A DNA stretch of 54,199 nucleotides from an uncultured Algibacter sp. (GTDB lineage Bacteria; Bacteroidota; Bacteroidia; Flavobacteriales; Flavobacteriaceae): NCBI RefSeq assembly GCF_905480415.1, contig NZ_CAJQQI010000146.1, positions 1-54,199 of the forward strand, written 5' to 3'. The translations under genes and the position numbers were made by a program. The notes under the pieces were generated by a model that saw nothing but the letters and a program-made list of their open reading frames with translations, was not told the DNA's origin and ran no database searches. Positions 1 through 45,092 of this stretch are shown here, in pieces; the stretch's first letter is position 1, and every line of letters starts with the position of its first letter.

Positions 1-2007
1 ATTTGATACATGGATTAATCCGCTTTCTTTAATACCAACATCTACAAAACATCCGAAGTTTGTAATGTTATTAACGATTCCTGGAAGTAATTGCCCATCG
101 CGTAAATCGTTAATGGTTTTTATATTTTGATTAAACGTAAATACTTTAGCCTGTTCCCTAATATCCAATCCAGGTTTTTCTAGTTCTTTAATGATATCTT
201 CAAGCGTTAATAGACCAACTGAATCTGTGCAATATTTTTTTAAATCTATTTTTTGAAGTAACGCTTTATTTCCAATTAAATCGTGAACTGATTTACCCAA
301 ATCTTTAGCCATTTTTGTTACTATCCCATAACTTTCAGGATGCACTGCAGAATCATCCAATGGATTTTGCGCCTCCTTAATTCTCAAAAACGCTGCGCCT
401 TGTTCGAAGGCTTTTCCTCCTAAACGTGGTACACTTTTAATTTCTTTTCTAGATGTGAAAACGCCATTTTCGTTTCTGTAATTAAAAATGTTTTCAGCTA
501 GTTTTGGACCAATACCTGAAACAGAACTTAGCAACGGTTTACTTGCCGTATTGATGTTTACACCAACAGCATTTACACAATTTTCTACCACAACATCCAA
601 TTGCTTTTGAAGTTTGGTTTGGTCTACATCATGCTGGTATTGACCAACGCCAATAGATTTTGCATCAATCTTTACCAATTCTGCTAGCGGGTCTTGTAAA
701 CGACGCCCAATAGAAACTGAACCACGAACCGTAACATCATAATTTGGGAATTCCTCTCGTGCTATTTTTGAAGCTGAATAAATACTTGCTCCCGCCTCAC
801 TCACCACAAATACTTTTACATCATTTTTAAAATGTACTTTTCTAATCAAAGCTTCGGTTTCTCTTGAAGCGGTACCGTTTCCAATAGCAATGGCTTCAAT
901 TTTATAAGCATCTACTAAAGATGCTATTTTCTTCATAGCTCCGATACTATCATTCTTCGGTGGATGTGGATAAATAGTTTCGTTATATTTTAATTGCCCT
1001 TGAGTATCTAAGCACACCACTTTACAACCTGTTCTAAATCCAGGGTCGATAGCCAAAACGTGTTTTTCTCCTAATGGAGATCCTAATAACAATTGTTTTA
1101 AGTTTTTTGCAAAAACATTAATTGCAGATTCATCTGCTTTTTCTTTTGCTATATGCAAAGCTTCATTACTTAACGATGGTAATAATAAGCGTTTGTATGC
1201 ATCTTTAATGGCTAGTTCTATTTGTTCGGCACAAGCGTTATTAGAACGCATCATTCTACTCTCAATTTTATCTAAAGCTTTGTCGTTATCTATCTCAATT
1301 TTAACACGAATAAAGCCCTCACTTTCGGCTCTTAAAATAGCTAACAAACGGTGCGATGGGATTCGGCTTAAGCTTTCTTCCCAATCAAAATAATCTCTAA
1401 ACTTTTGTGCTTTTTCGTCGGTCACTTTTGTTTTTATCACTTTCGTGGAAATCATTGCGAAACGCTGAAGCTGATGACGAATATTATTTCTAATATCAGT
1501 ACGTTCATTAACCCATTCGGCAATAATATGTCTGGCGCCCTCCAAAGCGTCTTTAACATAATATACATAGCCTTTTACGTATTTAAATGCTATAGATTCG
1601 ATATCATTAGCCTTCTGGCTCATTATAATTTTGGCAAGTGGTTCTAATCCGTTTTGGCGTGCTTTCTCTGCTTTAGTTTTTCGACTTTTTTTATAGGGTA
1701 AGTATAAGTCTTCAAGTGTCATTAAATCTTGAGTGTCTTTAATTTTATGTTTTAATTCTGAGGTTAAAACATCTTGCTCTTCTAAAGCTTTTAAAATGGC
1801 TTTTTTTCGTTTTTCTAGAGCTTCAAATTGTTCTTTATATTTTACGATATCACCAATTTGAACCTCATCTAAATTTCCGGTGCGTTCTTTTCTGTAACGC
1901 GAAATAAAAGGAATGGTACAATCTTCATTAAGTAATTCAATCGTATTTTTTACTGATTGCTCTGGTAATTGTAACTGAGAAAGTATGTATTTTAGTTGTG
2001 TCGACAT
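1..2007 (-). CDS. tex: Tex/YhgF-family RNA-binding transcription accessory protein, 3' end cut by the window
   Basis: The frame is open from the ATG at 2007 to base 1, so 669 codons are present and the stop lies outside the window, which is why it is missing from the ORF track. The N-terminus carries the Tex hallmark PFISRYRKE. The last visible residues (LLPGIVNNITNFGCFVDVGI) begin an S1 RNA-binding domain. Tex proteins have helical and YqgF-like domains, helix-hairpin-helix elements and a C-terminal S1 domain, and act in transcription and RNA metabolism. Family members are about 700 residues, so roughly the last 35-45 residues are missing. A small lipoprotein gene is divergent from it, with a 67-bp intergenic space. 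Identification is firm; the cellular role in this phylum is inferred. Confidence 0.93.
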   Translation of the reverse strand, partial: MSTQLKYILSQLQLPEQSVKNTIELLNEDCTIPFISRYRKERTGNLDEVQIGDIVKYKEQFEALEKRKKAILKALEEQDVLTSELKHKIKDTQDLMTLEDLYLPYKKSRKTKAEKARQNGLEPLAKIIMSQKANDIESIAFKYVKGYVYYVKDALEGARHIIAEWVNERTDIRNNIRHQLQRFAMISTKVIKTKVTDEKAQKFRDYFDWEESLSRIPSHRLLAILRAESEGFIRVKIEIDNDKALDKIESRMMRSNNACAEQIELAIKDAYKRLLLPSLSNEALHIAKEKADESAINVFAKNLKQLLLGSPLGEKHVLAIDPGFRTGCKVVCLDTQGQLKYNETIYPHPPKNDSIGAMKKIASLVDAYKIEAIAIGNGTASRETEALIRKVHFKNDVKVFVVSEAGASIYSASKIAREEFPNYDVTVRGSVSIGRRLQDPLAELVKIDAKSIGVGQYQHDVDQTKLQKQLDVVVENCVNAVGVNINTASKPLLSSVSGIGPKLAENIFNYRNENGVFTSRKEIKSVPRLGGKAFEQGAAFLRIKEAQNPLDDSAVHPESYGIVTKMAKDLGKSVHDLIGNKALLQKIDLKKYCTDSVGLLTLEDIIKELEKPGLDIREQAKVFTFNQNIKTINDLRDGQLLPGIVNNITNFGCFVDVGIKESGLIHVSN

Positions 2008-2051
2008 TCGCCTTAAAAATTATGATGCTAAAATAAGGTTTACGTATGACT

Positions 2052-2059
2052 TAAATTTG
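2052..2059 (+). promoter_or_regulatory. -7 promoter box TAnnTTTG
   Basis: TAAATTTG matches the Bacteroidota sigma-A -7 consensus and lies 15 bp before the ATG of the lipoprotein gene at 2075. I see no clear -33 TTTG. Confidence 0.55.
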
Positions 2060-2074
2060 TAAAATAATAACCGT

Positions 2075-2539
2075 ATGAAACACCTATTAAAAGTACTTTG
2101 TATTTTAATTCTAACAAGTTGTGAAAAACAAAAAGAAGTAACTACTAATAATGTTGAAGATTTTGTATCAGTAGAGCAAGTAGTTCAGCGCGTTTTCGAT
2201 GATATTTGGAGTTCTAACAAATCTGAATTGCTTTCAAAATATCATACCGATGATTTTATACTTTTAGAACATGGCGAAGTTTGGACAAACGACACCATTT
2301 TCAATTGGTGTGAACGTGCTAAAAAAAGAGATCAAGGTGCGAAACGCATCAATAGTTTTGATTTTTTTAAAGCTGAAAGAGAAGGCAATCGTATTTGGAT
2401 GGCATACCACAATTATGCAACATTTAAATCTGAAAATGGAGAAGGAAAAGCGCAATGGTTAGAAAGTATAATAGCAGTAAAAAAAGATACTGTTTGGAAG
2501 TTGGAATTAATGCATTCTACTCGAGTGAATAGAAAATAA
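2075..2539 (+). CDS. Small lipoprotein with NTF2/SnoaL-like fold
   Basis: The 154-residue product opens with a lipoprotein signal ending in the lipobox LTSC (Cys16), so it should be processed by signal peptidase II and anchored in the envelope. The body has the alpha-plus-beta pattern of DUF4440/SnoaL-like proteins: an early helix (VVQRVFDDIWSSN), a YHTDDFILLEHG strand region, and a late WLESIIAVKKDTVWKLELMH stretch like the last two strands of the NTF2 cone. No catalytic set can be assigned, so substrate and role are unknown. It has its own promoter box and stands alone between tex and ferritin. Confidence 0.8.
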   Translation: MKHLLKVLCILILTSCEKQKEVTTNNVEDFVSVEQVVQRVFDDIWSSNKSELLSKYHTDDFILLEHGEVWTNDTIFNWCERAKKRDQGAKRINSFDFFKAEREGNRIWMAYHNYATFKSENGEGKAQWLESIIAVKKDTVWKLELMHSTRVNRK

Positions 2540-2545
2540 GGGTTA

Positions 2546-2707
2546 TTAAGCAACTTTTTTAATCAAATCAAAACAAGGGCATTTTTTACAACGCCTATTT
2601 TTGTCTTCTTTAAATTTTTTGCAGCAACTATCTTTAGCTTTTTTATGCAGTTTTATGCCTAGTTTGCGTAATCTTTTAATTGCTTTCTTTTTCTTCTTTT
2701 TGCCCAA
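2546..2707 (-). CDS. Possible 53-residue Lys- and Cys-rich small protein downstream of ferritin
   Basis: This frame is too short for the ORF track. It reads from a TTG at 2707 (an ATT lies one codon upstream; no ATG in frame) to TAA at 2546-2548. The product starts with a run of lysines after LG, continues IKRLRKLGIKLHKKAKD, and ends with a Cys cluster: CC, ten residues, then CKKCPC followed by FDLIKKVA. The regular basic and Cys spacing looks selected and resembles a small metal- or nucleic-acid-binding protein. It lies 76 bp behind ferritin on the same strand. The missing ATG and lack of a ribosome binding site are the main doubts. A different ATG 8 bp upstream is out of frame and gives only 18 codons. 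Confidence 0.45.
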   Translation of the reverse strand: MGKKKKKKAIKRLRKLGIKLHKKAKDSCCKKFKEDKNRRCKKCPCFDLIKKVA

Positions 2708-2783
2708 AATAACATGCGATATTCAGATCGACACACAAAAATAAGTTATTTTTATTAAATCTAAATAAGCTAAAACTTTAAAG

Positions 2784-3302
2784 TTAAAGGGGCGTATTTG
2801 TAGCTGCTGTAGTTACTGTTAGATTTTCAATATCTCTATCAAATAGATACAAGCCACCTTTATCATCACCAATCATATTTATTTTATCCAGAATGGTGCG
2901 CGCTACGGCCTCTTCTTCAATTTGTTCTGCTACATACCACTGTAAAAAGTTATGAGTAGCATAGTCTTTTTCTTGTAGGCTTATGTGTACTAATTCATTA
3001 ATACTTTGAGATACATAAACTTCATGTTCAAACAATTTTTCGAACATTTCTTTAATTGATTTGAATGTGACATTTGGTGCTGCTAATTCGGAAATTTGTG
3101 CATGACCTCCGCGCTCATTTACAAACTTTACCAACTTCAACATATGTTCACGTTCTTCATCAGATTGTGCATACATAAAATTAGAAATCCCTTCTAAACC
3201 TTTAATCTCTGCCCAACATGCCATGGCTAAATAAATTTGAGAAGATTCTGCTTCTATTCGTATTTGACTATTTAATGCGGCTTCTATGATTTTTGATAAC
3301 AT
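2784..3302 (-). CDS. ftnA: Non-heme ferritin
   Basis: This 172-residue protein has the usual length for a bacterial ferritin subunit (24-mer iron store in the cytoplasm). Ferroxidase-centre features are visible: an early Glu in RIEAESSQIYLAM, the SDEEREHM helix-B motif, and the AEQIEEEAVARTI stretch in helix D. Tyr and Trp residues typical of FtnA are present (QIYLAMACWAE). It oxidises Fe(II) and stores it as a ferric mineral. It is transcribed away from metG on the same strand, with a TAACTTTA sequence upstream as a weak -7 candidate. A tiny Cys-rich ORF follows it. Confidence 0.96.
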   Translation of the reverse strand: MLSKIIEAALNSQIRIEAESSQIYLAMACWAEIKGLEGISNFMYAQSDEEREHMLKLVKFVNERGGHAQISELAAPNVTFKSIKEMFEKLFEHEVYVSQSINELVHISLQEKDYATHNFLQWYVAEQIEEEAVARTILDKINMIGDDKGGLYLFDRDIENLTVTTAATNTPL

Positions 3303-3343
3303 AATATTTTGTTTTATGTAAAGTTACTAAAAACGTTTATTTT

Positions 3344-5479
3344 TTAGCTAATCTGCAACCCATTTACAACACTAGTATCATCAGGATTTACGAACACCAA
3401 TTTGCCGTCAGCATTTTCAGTCATTAAAATCATACCTTGACTCTCAACACCTCTTAACGCCCTCGGTGCCAGATTTACTAACACTGTTACACGTTTCCCA
3501 ACCACTTCTTCCGCAGTAAAACTTTCAGCAATACCAGATACTATGGTTCTTGTATCAATTCCTGTATCAACTTTAAGTTTTAATAATTTTTTGGTTTTTG
3601 GCATTTTTTCTGCTTCTAAAATTGTGCCTACACGCATATCTAACTTTGTAAAATCCTCAAATGTGATAGTATCTTTTTGAGGTTCTACTGTTTTGTTTGC
3701 CGCTTCGTTTGCTTTTTTACTTGCTTCTAATTTATCAAGTTGTTTTTGGATGGTTTCGTCTTCTATTTTAGAGAATAACAATTCTGCTTTTCCTATTTTA
3801 TGTCCCTCTGGCAATAACGTTTCTTTTGTGCTTACTTCATTCCAGGATATCGCGTCATTGTGAGACTCATTTTTTTGAGTCGTGGCAATCTGTTCATTTG
3901 AAGAGATAACCACGTCGCTTCTCTCCTCATTATGACGTAATCCAAGAATATTTTTAAGTTTTTCAGAAGTAAACGGTAAAAATGGTTCACACAAAGTTGC
4001 TAATGCCGACGCTATTTGCAGCGACACGTACATAATAGTTTGTGTTCTGGCTTCATCAACTTTAATGACTTTCCACGGCTCTTCGTCTGCTAAATATTTA
4101 TTTCCTAAACGTGCTAAATTCATCAATTCTTGTCCCGCCTCTCTAAAACGGTAACGTTCTATTGAACTTGCAATGACATCTGGATACGCTTTAATTTTAG
4201 CTAAAGTTTCGGCATCAACTTGTGTAAAATCACCAGGAGTTGGTACAACACCATCATAATATTTGTTGGTAAGCACAACTACTCGGTTTATAAAGTTCCC
4301 GAAAATAGCTACTAACTCATTATTATTTCTAGCTTGGAAATCTTTCCAAGTAAAATCGGTATCCTTTGTTTCCGGCGCATTTGCATTTAATGAATAACGT
4401 AACACGTCCTGCTGACCAGGAAATTCCTCTAAATAATCCGGTAACCAAACTGCCCAGTTTTTGGAGGTTGATAACTTATTACCTTCTAAATTTAAAAACT
4501 CATTTGCTGGTACATTTTCTGGCAGAATATAACTGCCTTCTGCTTTTAACATAGCTGGAAAAATAATACAGTGAAATACAATATTATCTTTTCCTATAAA
4601 GTGAACTAGTTTTGTGTCTTTGTCTTTCCAATACGGTTCCCAGTCTTTTCCAACACGGTCTGCCCATTCTTTGGTTGAAGAAATGTAACCAATAGGCGCA
4701 TCAAACCAAACATACAACACTTTCCCTTCTCCGCCTTCTGCTGGTACAGGAATTCCCCAATCTAAATCTCTGGTTACCGCACGTGGCCGCAATCCATCAT
4801 CAATCCAAGATTTACATTGTCCGTATACATTAGGTTTCCAATCTTTTTTATGACCTTCTAAAATCCATTCTTTTAAAAACGCTTCATGTTTGTCTAAAGG
4901 TAAAAACCAGTGTTTCGTTTGTTTTAAAGTCGGTACATTTCCTGTAATTGCAGATTTTGGATTAATCAAATCTGTAGCATTATGGCTCGTTCCACAACTT
5001 TCACATTGATCGCCATAACTTTCTTCGTTCCCACATTTAGGGCAAGTACCAACAACAAAACGATCTGCTAAAAATTGATTTGCTTCAGCATCATACAACT
5101 GTTCTGTAGTTTCTTCTATGAATTCACCTTTTTTATCTAAAGTTTTAAAAAACTCTGAAGCCGTTTCATGATGAATAGGTGCCGATGTACGTGAATAATT
5201 ATCGAACGTTATTCCAAAATCTTCAAACGATTTCTTAATAATTGCATGATATTTATCAACGACATCTTGAGGCGATACACCTTCCTTCTTTGCCTTTATA
5301 GTAATTGGGACACCATGTTCGTCACTTCCACCAATAAATGCTACATCATTCCCTGTTAAACGTAAATAGCGCGCATAAATATCTGCTGGTACATAAACAC
5401 CTGCTAAATGCCCAATGTGAATTGGCCCGTTTGTATAAGGAAGTGCAGTAGTAATTGTATATCTTTTAGGCTTGTTCAT
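3344..5479 (-). CDS. metG: Methionyl-tRNA synthetase with C-terminal tRNA-binding domain
   Basis: MetG charges tRNA-Met with methionine. The class I signature PIHIGHLAG is near residue 20. A zinc knuckle follows at about residues 140-160 (CPKCGN...CESCG). The second signature is a KMSKS variant, NKLSTSKNW. The C-terminus (from about residue 600, [20 protein letters not shown]) is the Trbp111-type OB-fold that promotes dimerisation and tRNA binding. I start it at the ATG at 5479 (MNKPKRYT), where family homology begins. The track start at 5542 is a TTG inside a palindromic repeat. Residues about 515-543 (HNEERSDVV...ESHNDA) are encoded by another palindromic repeat inserted in frame between the anticodon-binding and OB domains. 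Confidence 0.97.
3853..3937. repeat. Palindromic repeat element inside the metG reading frame
   Basis: The 85-bp element has inverted ends: CGTCATTGTGAG at the left, and CTCATTATGACG at the right, whose complement is CGTCATAATGAG (10 of 12 bases match). Inner arms CGTGG and CCACG can also pair. It has the look of the intergenic CGTCATTGCGAG-type repeats common in Bacteroidota genomes, but here it is translated as part of MetG without breaking the frame. Confidence 0.8.
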
Positions 5480-41124: not shown

Positions 41125-41162
41125 CATAAAAAAAGCACCTAAATAAAAATTTAGATGCTTTA
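41125..41162 (-). terminator. Orphan minus-strand terminator-like hairpin
   Basis: AAAGCA-TCTAAAT and ATTTAG-GTGCTTT pair around TTTTA on the minus strand and lead to a TTTTTTTATGGG tail. No minus-strand gene ends here, since recA (plus) is to the right. Confidence 0.5.
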
Positions 41163-41332
41163 GTTGAGTTTAGAGTTAGTCTTAGTTCAAAAACTCATTT
41201 TTGTAAATTTGATAGAATATTTTTACTCTTTATTAACTAGATGCAAATTGTGTAAAAAGGTTGCGTCATAAAATTGTATTGTGAAAAAAGATATGGTATT
41301 TTAGCATACAATTTTTAGAAAAAAACAAAGAA

Positions 41333-42370: not shown

Positions 42371-42451
42371 AATTTAAAACAAATTATTCGGTTTTCTACG
42401 CAACCTTTTTGTGCCTTTAGCATCTACATAGTGCAAACATGCATATAACAC

Positions 42452-42466: not shown

Positions 42467-42877
42467 ATGAAAAGGTTAGTAGTTTTTTGTTTAACACTTA
42501 TGCTTTTTGCATCTTGTAGTGTTGATGACGATAGCACAAGTTTTAGCTTTGAAGTTTTACCTGTTGAAAGTGTAGACATCCCTGATGAATTTGAGTTAGG
42601 GGAAACCTATCCTATCACAGTATCTTATTTAAGGCCTTCAACATGTCATGGTTTTAAAGAGTTTTATTATTTAAAAGAAAATAATGAACGAACAGTTGCT
42701 CCAATAACATATGTTTTTGATAACAACGACTGTGAAACTCTTGAAGACAACTTGGTTGAAGCAACTTTTAACTTTATAGTTACCAGCAATGGTTCGTATA
42801 TTTTTAAGTTTTGGCAAGGCGAAGGTACTGACGGAGAAACTCAATACTTAATTATTGAAGTTCCTGTTATCGCGTAA
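42467..42877 (+). CDS. Lipoprotein of unknown function upstream of an ECF sigma gene
   Basis: The 136-residue product has a lipobox at LFASC (Cys17) followed by SVDDD, a typical surface/outer-membrane lipoprotein start. The mature region is a beta-rich domain with one pair of cysteines (STCHGF and NNDCET) and a late segment YIFKFWQGEGTDG. It resembles small Ig-like secreted domains; I do not know the family. It is 28 bp upstream of the ECF sigma gene and in the same direction, so it could be part of the same regulatory unit, for example as sensor or target. Confidence 0.75.
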   Translation: MKRLVVFCLTLMLFASCSVDDDSTSFSFEVLPVESVDIPDEFELGETYPITVSYLRPSTCHGFKEFYYLKENNERTVAPITYVFDNNDCETLEDNLVEATFNFIVTSNGSYIFKFWQGEGTDGETQYLIIEVPVIA

Positions 42878-42904: not shown

Positions 42905-43447
42905 TTGAGTTTAAAACAACTCATAGAAAATTGTAAAATTAATAATACTAAAGCACAAGGTGAATTATACAAACTCTTTTCGGGTAAGTTGTTCGCAATT
43001 TGCTTAAAGTATTCGCGAAACTATGCCGAAGCTGAAGATAATTTGCAAGACGCATTTTTAACAATTTTTAATAAAATTGAACAATATAAAGATAAAGGTT
43101 CCTTTGAAGGTTGGATAAAACGTATTACCGTAAACACGGCATTGCAACGTTACCGAACCGAAAAAGTTTTTGATATAATAAATGAAAATACTATTGAAGA
43201 CGTTGAATTGGAAGTTGATGAAGACACGGTCTCCATTGATTATCTTTTAAAAATTATTCAAGAATTGCCCGATAGATACAGATTGGTTTTTAACTTATAT
43301 GTACTAGATGGTTATTCGCATAAAGACATAGCAGACATGCTGAAAATTAACATAGGGACTTCAAAATCTAATTTATCACGAGCTAGACTAATTTTGAAAC
43401 AAACTATTGAAGATCATAAATCAATGCAACGTTCGCAAACATTATAA
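42905..43447 (+). CDS. ECF-type RNA polymerase sigma factor
   Basis: The 180-residue protein has sigma region 2 (YSRNYAEAEDNLQDAFLTIFNKIEQYK) and region 4 (LPDRYRLVFNLYVLDGYSHKDIADMLKINIGTSKSNLSRARLILK), and no region 3, as in ECF factors. The start is a TTG at 42905 (LSLKQLIENCK); the only alternatives before the upstream stop are ATT, ATA and CTG. The stop is adjacent to the ATG of the next gene, so expression is coupled to the putative regulator. Confidence 0.92.
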   Translation: MSLKQLIENCKINNTKAQGELYKLFSGKLFAICLKYSRNYAEAEDNLQDAFLTIFNKIEQYKDKGSFEGWIKRITVNTALQRYRTEKVFDIINENTIEDVELEVDEDTVSIDYLLKIIQELPDRYRLVFNLYVLDGYSHKDIADMLKINIGTSKSNLSRARLILKQTIEDHKSMQRSQTL

Positions 43448-44998
43448 ATGAGTGACAAGAAACATATAGACAGACTATTCCAAGAAGCCTTTAAAGATTT
43501 TGAAGCGGTTCCCAGTGATGCTGTTTGGAAAAATATAAAAACTAAACTAAACGAAAAAAATAAAAAACGTCGTGTAATTCCAATATGGTGGCGTTATGCT
43601 GGTGTTGCGGCGTTATTACTTCTACTTTTAACTGTTGGCGGTATCTATTTTAATAATACAGGTGAAGGTAAAATCGATCAAGTTGCTGATACTGAAAATA
43701 CAAATTCAGAGAACGCTGATATTAAAAATAACGATGCTACTAAAACTAATCTAGTGGTCTCAGATAACAACATTCAAGACGATTTAAGCGAGGCTTCAAA
43801 CCAACAATCTGAAATAATAAAAGATAAAGCAAGTCCATCGAAAGAAGCTTCAATTGCTGAAACTTCTGCTTCAAAAAACCAAAACGAAAGTAAAACGAAG
43901 TTGACTTCATCTCATAAATTAAATATCAACAAAAGACTAGTTAATCTTAGTAATAATAACGCTATGCTTAATTCCTCTGAAGAAAAAAATAGTGGTATAA
44001 CTCTTCAAAATGAACTAGTAAAAAAGACTAGTGTTACTAACCCTTCCGAAAACAATAAAGATAATATTGACTCTGAAAATGACGTGCAATTAGTAAATAA
44101 AGAAAAAGCTAAAACACTTATTACTGAAGCTTCAAAAGATAATACTGCCATGGCCACTGTTAATACAGAAACTATTGAAGACGATAAATCCGATGAAAAC
44201 TCAGAAGAAAACAAGCTTTCTATAGAGGATGCTTTAAATATTACTAATGATGTTATTGAAGAAGAGAGCAACAAACTAAATAATAAGTGGAGTATCGCTA
44301 CAAATGCTGCTCCAGTTTATTTTAATACTTTGGGAGGACAAGGCTCATCAATAGACCCACAATTCAACAATAATTCTAAATCTGGTGAAGTTAATATGAG
44401 TTATGGTATTTCTGCAAGTTATGCTGTAAATAAAAAATTAAGTATTCGTTCTGGTATTAACAGAGTTAATTTAGGCTATAACACCAACGACATTGTGGTT
44501 TTTCAATCTGTTGGTTTAAGTTCTAGTAGTAGCGCTCTGCAAAATGTTAATTCAAGCTCTAATAGTGCTGATGCTATTTCTCTTATTAGTTCTGAAACTT
44601 TAGATACTTCAGCTTCTGAATCTATAGTAGCTTCTAATGCTTCAATTAATCAAGCTTTAGGTTATATTGAAATTCCTTTAGAAATTCAATACATGCTTTC
44701 TGACAAAAAATTTGGAGTAAATCTTATTGGTGGCTTTAGTTCTTTCTTTTTAAATAATAACGAAATATTCTCAGAAGAGGAAAATGGCGCCAAAACTTTT
44801 CTTGGTGAGGCCAGTAACATAAATAAAATGAGTTATAGTGCTAATTTCGGATTGGGTTTAAACTATAAAGTCTCTAAACGATTCGATTTAAATTTAGAAC
44901 CTATCTTTAAATATCAATTTAATACATTTAATAATACTTCTGGGAATTTTACACCATTTTTTATAGGTGTTTATACCGGATTCGCTATAAAGTTCTAG
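43448..44998 (+). CDS. Fused membrane regulator: cytoplasmic anti-sigma-like head, one TM helix, linker, outer-membrane-type beta-barrel
   Basis: The 516-residue protein begins with a soluble head of about 50 residues (HIDRLFQEAFKDFEAVPSDAVW), common next to ECF sigma genes in this phylum. A helix at about 52-70 (YAGVAALLLLLLTVGGIYF) follows, preceded by basic residues, so the head should be in the cytoplasm. Residues about 75-285 are low complexity, rich in Ser, Asn, Glu, Lys and Thr. From about 290 there are repeated amphipathic strands (SIATNAAPVYF; MSYGISASYAVNKKLSIRSGI), ending YTGFAIKF with a terminal Phe like a beta-barrel assembly signal. The layout suggests a protein that joins both membranes. 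Function as an anti-sigma factor is inferred from coupling to the sigma gene. Confidence 0.75.
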   Translation: MSDKKHIDRLFQEAFKDFEAVPSDAVWKNIKTKLNEKNKKRRVIPIWWRYAGVAALLLLLLTVGGIYFNNTGEGKIDQVADTENTNSENADIKNNDATKTNLVVSDNNIQDDLSEASNQQSEIIKDKASPSKEASIAETSASKNQNESKTKLTSSHKLNINKRLVNLSNNNAMLNSSEEKNSGITLQNELVKKTSVTNPSENNKDNIDSENDVQLVNKEKAKTLITEASKDNTAMATVNTETIEDDKSDENSEENKLSIEDALNITNDVIEEESNKLNNKWSIATNAAPVYFNTLGGQGSSIDPQFNNNSKSGEVNMSYGISASYAVNKKLSIRSGINRVNLGYNTNDIVVFQSVGLSSSSSALQNVNSSSNSADAISLISSETLDTSASESIVASNASINQALGYIEIPLEIQYMLSDKKFGVNLIGGFSSFFLNNNEIFSEEENGAKTFLGEASNINKMSYSANFGLGLNYKVSKRFDLNLEPIFKYQFNTFNNTSGNFTPFFIGVYTGFAIKF

Positions 44999-45061
44999 GT
45001 TTTTGGTTAGATCTGGATATGGATTTTCATTTAAGCTCGAAAGCTCATATCGAAGAAGAAG

Positions 45062-45092
45062 CTGCTCGTTCCCTCGAGCAGTTTTTTTTATT
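45062..45092. terminator. Terminator between the fused regulator and the convergent acyltransferase gene
   Basis: CTGCTCG and CGAGCAG form a 7-bp stem around TTCCCT, followed by eight T on the plus strand. Confidence 0.88.

Follow-up and report, generated by a model that had tools for sequence, protein, structure and literature searches.

Can a single polypeptide connect an ECF sigma factor with the outer membrane? This question is raised by a locus in the window, by which we mean the whole stretch of 54,199 nucleotides analysed here (contig NZ_CAJQQI010000146.1 of an uncultured Algibacter sp.), where an earlier note had proposed that an anti-sigma-like head and an outer-membrane barrel are joined in one chain directly after an ECF sigma gene.

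A sigma factor and a predicted barrel-bearing anti-sigma protein

The genes and protein segments concerned are given below in the positions of the window.

42467..42877, + strand: lipoprotein gene, 136 aa, leading the operon; lipobox LFASC, then SVDDD
42905..43447, + strand: ECF sigma factor gene, 180 aa, TTG start (Pfam Sigma70_r2 2e-14, Sigma70_r4_2 7e-16)
43448..44998, + strand: gene of the predicted envelope-spanning anti-sigma factor, 516 aa
43448..43582, + strand: head, residues 1-45, presumed sigma-binding and cytoplasmic (AlphaFold2, 72% mean identity)
43583..43651, + strand: transmembrane helix, residues 46-68 (AlphaFold2 helix 46-68; 78% hydrophobic)
43652..44281, + strand: predicted disordered periplasmic tether, residues 69-278 (pLDDT mostly <50, 24% identity)
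44282..44998, + strand: predicted C-terminal beta-barrel of the outer membrane, residues 279-516, ending in Phe (Foldseek; Pfam in relatives)
45054..45089, + strand: intrinsic terminator closing the operon (terminator scan)

As the note had it, the ORF follows the sigma gene directly, starting at 43448 where the other ends at 43447, with no gap between them. The sigma factor, which carries both sigma Pfam domains, is 54-91% identical over 25 relatives, and among the 25 NCBIfam matches listed for it the general sigma70-ECF superfamily alone exceeds its cut-off. The head of the neighbouring protein is rich in charged residues (42%) and has two short helices (5-14 and 24-36) in an AlphaFold2 model built from a 40-sequence alignment, where confidence over the head and the transmembrane helix is moderate (block means 57-70) and the overall pTM is 0.45. 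With eight K/R in the 20 residues on the N-terminal side of the helix and one after it, the positive-inside rule would place the head on the cytoplasmic side. N, S, T and Q account for 41% of the 210-residue linker, which has no aromatic residue at all and whose pLDDT stays <50 across 69-216 and 231-256; while in the C-terminal 238 residues aromatics make up 13%, and strands are predicted over 281-515 with block means mostly of 75-91, dropping to 50-60 in the final 25 residues. A long segment of low confidence between the barrel strands (about 354-394) is consistent with an outer loop.

For the C-terminal domain, Foldseek against the PDB matched OmpA, OmpW, NspA, OmpX and Ail, each a small 8-strand outer-membrane barrel. 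OmpA was the best of these, with E 7.5e-6 and a target-normalised TM-score of 0.64. In the 40 relatives, Pfam finds OMP_b-brl in 26 and OMP_b-brl_2 in 21 (E <= 0.01, best 2.7e-8), and in the protein of the window it finds no barrel family above cut-off; the terminal Phe is present on all 40 aligned barrel domains. The structure prediction that the earlier note had suggested as a check therefore gives an outer-membrane-type barrel and no soluble periplasmic fold, and the head, the single hydrophobic helix, the low-complexity stretch of about 210 residues and the barrel-like end that it had described are all recovered. An even number of strands would place both barrel ends on the periplasmic side, as the tether requires. 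A Pfam match to DUF4179 (4e-4, below cut-off) was set aside as uninformative, for it spans the transmembrane region only, and the family profile, run against PDB sequences, returned just integrin transmembrane helices and one designed protein (E >= 0.09).

No FecR domain is matched by Pfam in the anti-sigma protein or its relatives, and no TonB-dependent receptor gene lies among the neighbouring ORFs, in line with the note's idea of a connection that needs no separate receptor. The locus is thus not that of a FecR-type anti-sigma factor with a TonB-dependent transducer.

The lipoprotein gene, which had been put forward as a possible third member, proves to be a conserved neighbour: it precedes the sigma gene in nearly all of the relatives' loci, and lipoprotein, sigma factor and anti-sigma protein form a conserved three-gene operon. 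In the alignment of the lipoproteins the lipobox Cys is invariant and acidic residues come after it, and the AlphaFold2 model is a beta-sandwich with pLDDT 92. This fold has no significant match in the PDB (none at E <0.02), and searches of Pfam and NCBIfam gave no family. NigD, the effector in Bt, was considered as its identity and dropped, as no NigD-type family matched. One Algibacter lineage (L017, L028 and L039) is missing the lipoprotein while retaining the sigma factor, the anti-sigma protein and the promoter, which indicates that the lipoprotein is not essential to the circuit.

The anti-sigma protein is present, mostly at full length, in 244 of the 301 sampled Flavobacteriaceae genomes, and among 40 aligned relatives the mean identity is 72% for the head and 63% for the barrel but 24% for the linker. 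Since head and barrel are conserved so widely and the linker is not, the architecture is not a matter of chance. The linker varies in length from 147 to 265 residues. Taking about 0.36 nm for each residue, we estimate a contour length of >50 nm for the shortest one already, exceeding a periplasm. Moreover, wherever a relative's contig extends far enough, an ECF sigma gene stands directly upstream, fragments excepted. In a phylum-wide search of 297 genomes with head and barrel profiles, 20 candidate loci were retrieved, most of them outside Flavobacteriaceae, and 18 have an ECF sigma gene immediately upstream; other families in the class also contain homologues of this layout.

Two side observations were made in these searches. 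Many ORFs of 240-260 aa in the class match the head and transmembrane region only (for example G406:C8:446136 and G377:C1:1044795), and are apparently barrel-less relatives of the anti-sigma protein. The flavobacterial operon also occurs on a contig titled Rhizobium sp. (L043, CALQAH020000002.1); the metagenome bin has probably been mislabelled or is contaminated.

Predicted promoter and regulon

A promoter-like motif precedes the operon and recurs beside recA.

42398..42426, + strand: predicted ECF promoter, ACGCAACCTTT-N12-GCATCTA (spacer and per-position counts)
42400-42405 and 42421-42425, + strand: promoter elements GCAACC and CATCT
41239..41264, - strand: second promoter copy, directed away from recA (motif search; most relatives share the site)
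41132..41232, - strand: candidate sigma-dependent small RNA (fold z-score -3.7; predicted transcript)
41161-41132, - strand: intrinsic terminator of the candidate small RNA (terminator scan)

Upstream of the sigma gene, GCAACC followed by an exact 15-nt spacer and [N]ATC[TC] is found in 79 of the 80 loci that have a sigma gene. Over 50 promoter sites GCAACC and ATC are invariant by per-position counts, partly by selection because the sites were gathered with that very pattern; the conservation of the flanking AC and TTT does not come from this selection. Among distant relatives at the class level the operon promoter is mostly not recognisable. The motif is not among SM1-SM6, the promoter motifs of F. 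psychrophilum mapped by TSS sequencing, as described in the text of that study, where the ECF-type SM6 has a CGT -10 box (PMC9723704).

In 10 genomes of the genus a degenerate form of the motif gives 56 sites against 2 for the reversed pattern, and in 151 genomes of the family 470 against 32; lengthening the spacer by one base, in a slightly stricter pattern, leaves 2 matches in the genus search. The number of sites per genome is 3.65 with the anti-sigma protein and 0.25 without it, although genomes without it are mostly small, so that part of this contrast could be genome size, and in one of those counted as lacking it (G128) a profile search finds a distant relative. The distance from the -10 element to the start of the ORF is usually 17-42 nt. 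Outside the operon, 25 of the 31 motif-led ORFs are predicted lipoproteins, compared with 19 of 136 background ORFs (p ~1e-12), the counts being not fully independent as several of these ORFs are orthologous between sister species. At least two acidic residues follow the Cys in 27/31 regulon lipoproteins versus 15/41 in the background, with means of 2.8 and 1.4 respectively, and such residues are a criterion for surface export in PMC12578637. The motif precedes mostly small predicted lipoproteins with acidic N-termini of the surface-export type, for which a surface location is probable. Members include a lipoprotein with a weak lipocalin-like match, one with LVIVD repeats, and DUF6174.

Besides the lipoproteins, the motif is followed by an ORF for a hydrophobic peptide of 28 aa, MNxILIIS...FSVNKKT[DE]P (L111, 1501 onward, G000:C14:16241, and relatives), which is conserved in 11 sequences with changes biased to third positions. 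In the genome of the window, the well-supported sites are those of the operon, the recA flank, the 28-aa peptide on C14 and a locus of two lipoproteins on C55. The copy beside recA leads into a short stretch that resembles a transcript, contains a conserved GACTAACTC and ends in the terminator, in whose stem 5 of 11 pairs are changed on both sides across relatives, as in covariation; Rfam gave nothing above threshold there. We regard it as a candidate for a sigma-dependent small RNA. In some relatives the recA-side promoter leads a 30-aa peptide, MKFFKQTILIN...NCKADGG, instead.

Relation to known systems

An envelope-spanning layout of this kind is already an established class, a point that the earlier note missed: the Dma1/Dma2 anti-sigma factors of Bacteroides thetaiotaomicron with their sigma factors Das1/Das2 (PMC13088901). 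The class has the layout described here and acts genetically as an inhibitor of its sigma factor (PMC13088901, PMC9308784). The likeness to Dma1/2 is one of layout, namely an N-terminal anti-sigma domain, one transmembrane helix, a long disordered tether and a C-terminal beta-barrel, with an ECF sigma gene alongside and a place in Bacteroidota; the flavobacterial operon differs in starting with a lipoprotein gene, and in having a promoter and regulon defined by comparison. A study of 2022 (PMC9308784) reports that the pair M0N98_03760-61 of Phocaeicola vulgatus responds to an antibacterial toxin, and cites a similar pair from B. fragilis, EcfO with its anti-sigma factor. These too have a sigma gene followed by an anti-sigma gene, whose product by prediction crosses the periplasm and carries an outer-membrane barrel, and a response of the envelope-stress type. 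However, these pairs belong to another bacterial order, and the output known there is a longer O-antigen together with protection against the toxin, whereas the predicted output of the flavobacterial system is surface lipoproteins.

FecI/FecR/FecA resembles the present system in that an outer-membrane event controls an ECF sigma factor through an inner-membrane anti-sigma factor; here, however, one chain would replace FecR and the TonB-dependent receptor, and the operon has neither receptor gene nor FecR domain. In E. coli, sigmaE and RseA form an envelope-stress system with an autoregulated operon and sigmaE-dependent sRNAs. The flavobacterial system would share the envelope-stress sigma factor, the autoregulation and probably a sigma-dependent sRNA, but RseA has no barrel and a different anti-sigma head, and the predicted flavobacterial targets are lipoproteins. 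Beyond the known class, what is added is the conserved three-gene operon, the promoter and the lipoprotein regulon.

A variant occurs in a different family of the order: there the ECF sigma gene precedes one ORF of 748-771 aa that has the same anti-sigma head and transmembrane helix, but continues, in place of the barrel, with a TonB plug of the SusC type, a VWA domain and a C-terminal sorting domain of the T9SS.

L155 (G554:C37), 166-2940, - strand: fused anti-sigma ORF
L156 (G500:C1), 1360-4203, + strand: fused anti-sigma ORF

Full-length relatives of this type are seen in G599 and G626, and a CAACC-N-GCATCT promoter lies just upstream of the locus. If read correctly, this would be an anti-sigma factor anchored in the inner membrane, with its C-terminus exported by the type IX system.

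Possible working of the sensor

Taken together, the locus is most likely a flavobacterial sigma/anti-sigma pair of the Dma type, an envelope sensor whose sigma factor would drive its own operon and a surface-lipoprotein regulon. Its architecture, linkage, promoter and regulon composition are read from the sequence, and from these we infer the topology, the sigma binding, the signal and the release step. The head of the 516-aa protein would bind the adjacent sigma factor in the cytoplasm, one helix would pass the inner membrane, and the tether of about 200 residues would reach through the periplasm to an OmpA-like barrel of eight strands in the outer membrane, likely partnered by the operon lipoprotein, which is probably surface-exposed. 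The trigger may be a disturbance of the outer membrane, of barrel assembly or of the surface lipoprotein layer, which the tether would signal inward, most likely through proteolysis of the chain, to free the sigma factor. The free sigma factor would then act at ACGCAACCTTT-N12-GCATCT promoters, transcribing a small regulon along with its own operon and yielding mainly surface lipoproteins, plus the 28-aa membrane peptide and the small RNA. The genome encodes two M50 proteases of the site-2 type, which leave room for regulated proteolysis without being specific evidence for it.

As to what is sensed, it is conceivable, though less likely than not, that surface lipoprotein, barrel, tether and head act as one sensor of the outer surface, through which the sigma factor resupplies surface lipoproteins and makes the small RNA. 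It is somewhat doubtful that the barrel instead reports on its own state and thereby probes the assembly of outer-membrane proteins, the lipoprotein being a target gene only and not a partner; in that case the free C-terminal Phe motif of an uninserted barrel, or a slack chain, would trigger proteolysis, much as DegS of E. coli is triggered by unfolded porins. The invariant Phe, the two M50 proteases and the loss of the lipoprotein with the rest retained speak for such a probe, yet the lipoprotein stays the first gene in most relatives, and the regulon consists of lipoproteins rather than chaperones or proteases.

Sensing of a surface ligand, where the barrel loops or the lipoprotein would bind an external molecule (glycan, toxin or metal) and pull the tether, would resemble TonB-dependent cell-surface signalling condensed into one chain. 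The putative outer loop is consistent with it, as are the toxin response of a Bacteroides pair of like type (PMC9308784) and the proposal of Dma2 as a glycan sensor (PMC13088901); we think it unlikely, however, for a general envelope signal fits better with a system near-universal in very different Flavobacteriaceae genera and with a lipoprotein regulon without transport genes. Finally, the chain might be cleaved constitutively into a conventional inner-membrane anti-sigma factor and an outer-membrane protein, with no envelope-spanning signal. A linker so unconstrained in sequence could well be cut, but its length is always sufficient to span the periplasm, the fusion is retained in nearly all relatives among the matches listed, and distant relatives share the same domain order, all of which make this quite improbable.

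The Dma papers considered here concern gut Bacteroides, where the signal and the direct targets are unclear. In the flavobacterial branch, which is near-universal and has a clean promoter and a predicted regulon of compact size, the questions of signal and targets become directly testable, and a reporter of the 26-bp promoter would read out the sensor. The system is also a candidate for a general envelope-stress response in a large group of environmental bacteria; and if surface lipoprotein, barrel, tether and head do act as one sensor of the outer surface, a circuit of surface-lipoprotein homeostasis would be the general envelope-stress system of Flavobacteriaceae, in the role that sigmaE has in E. 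coli.
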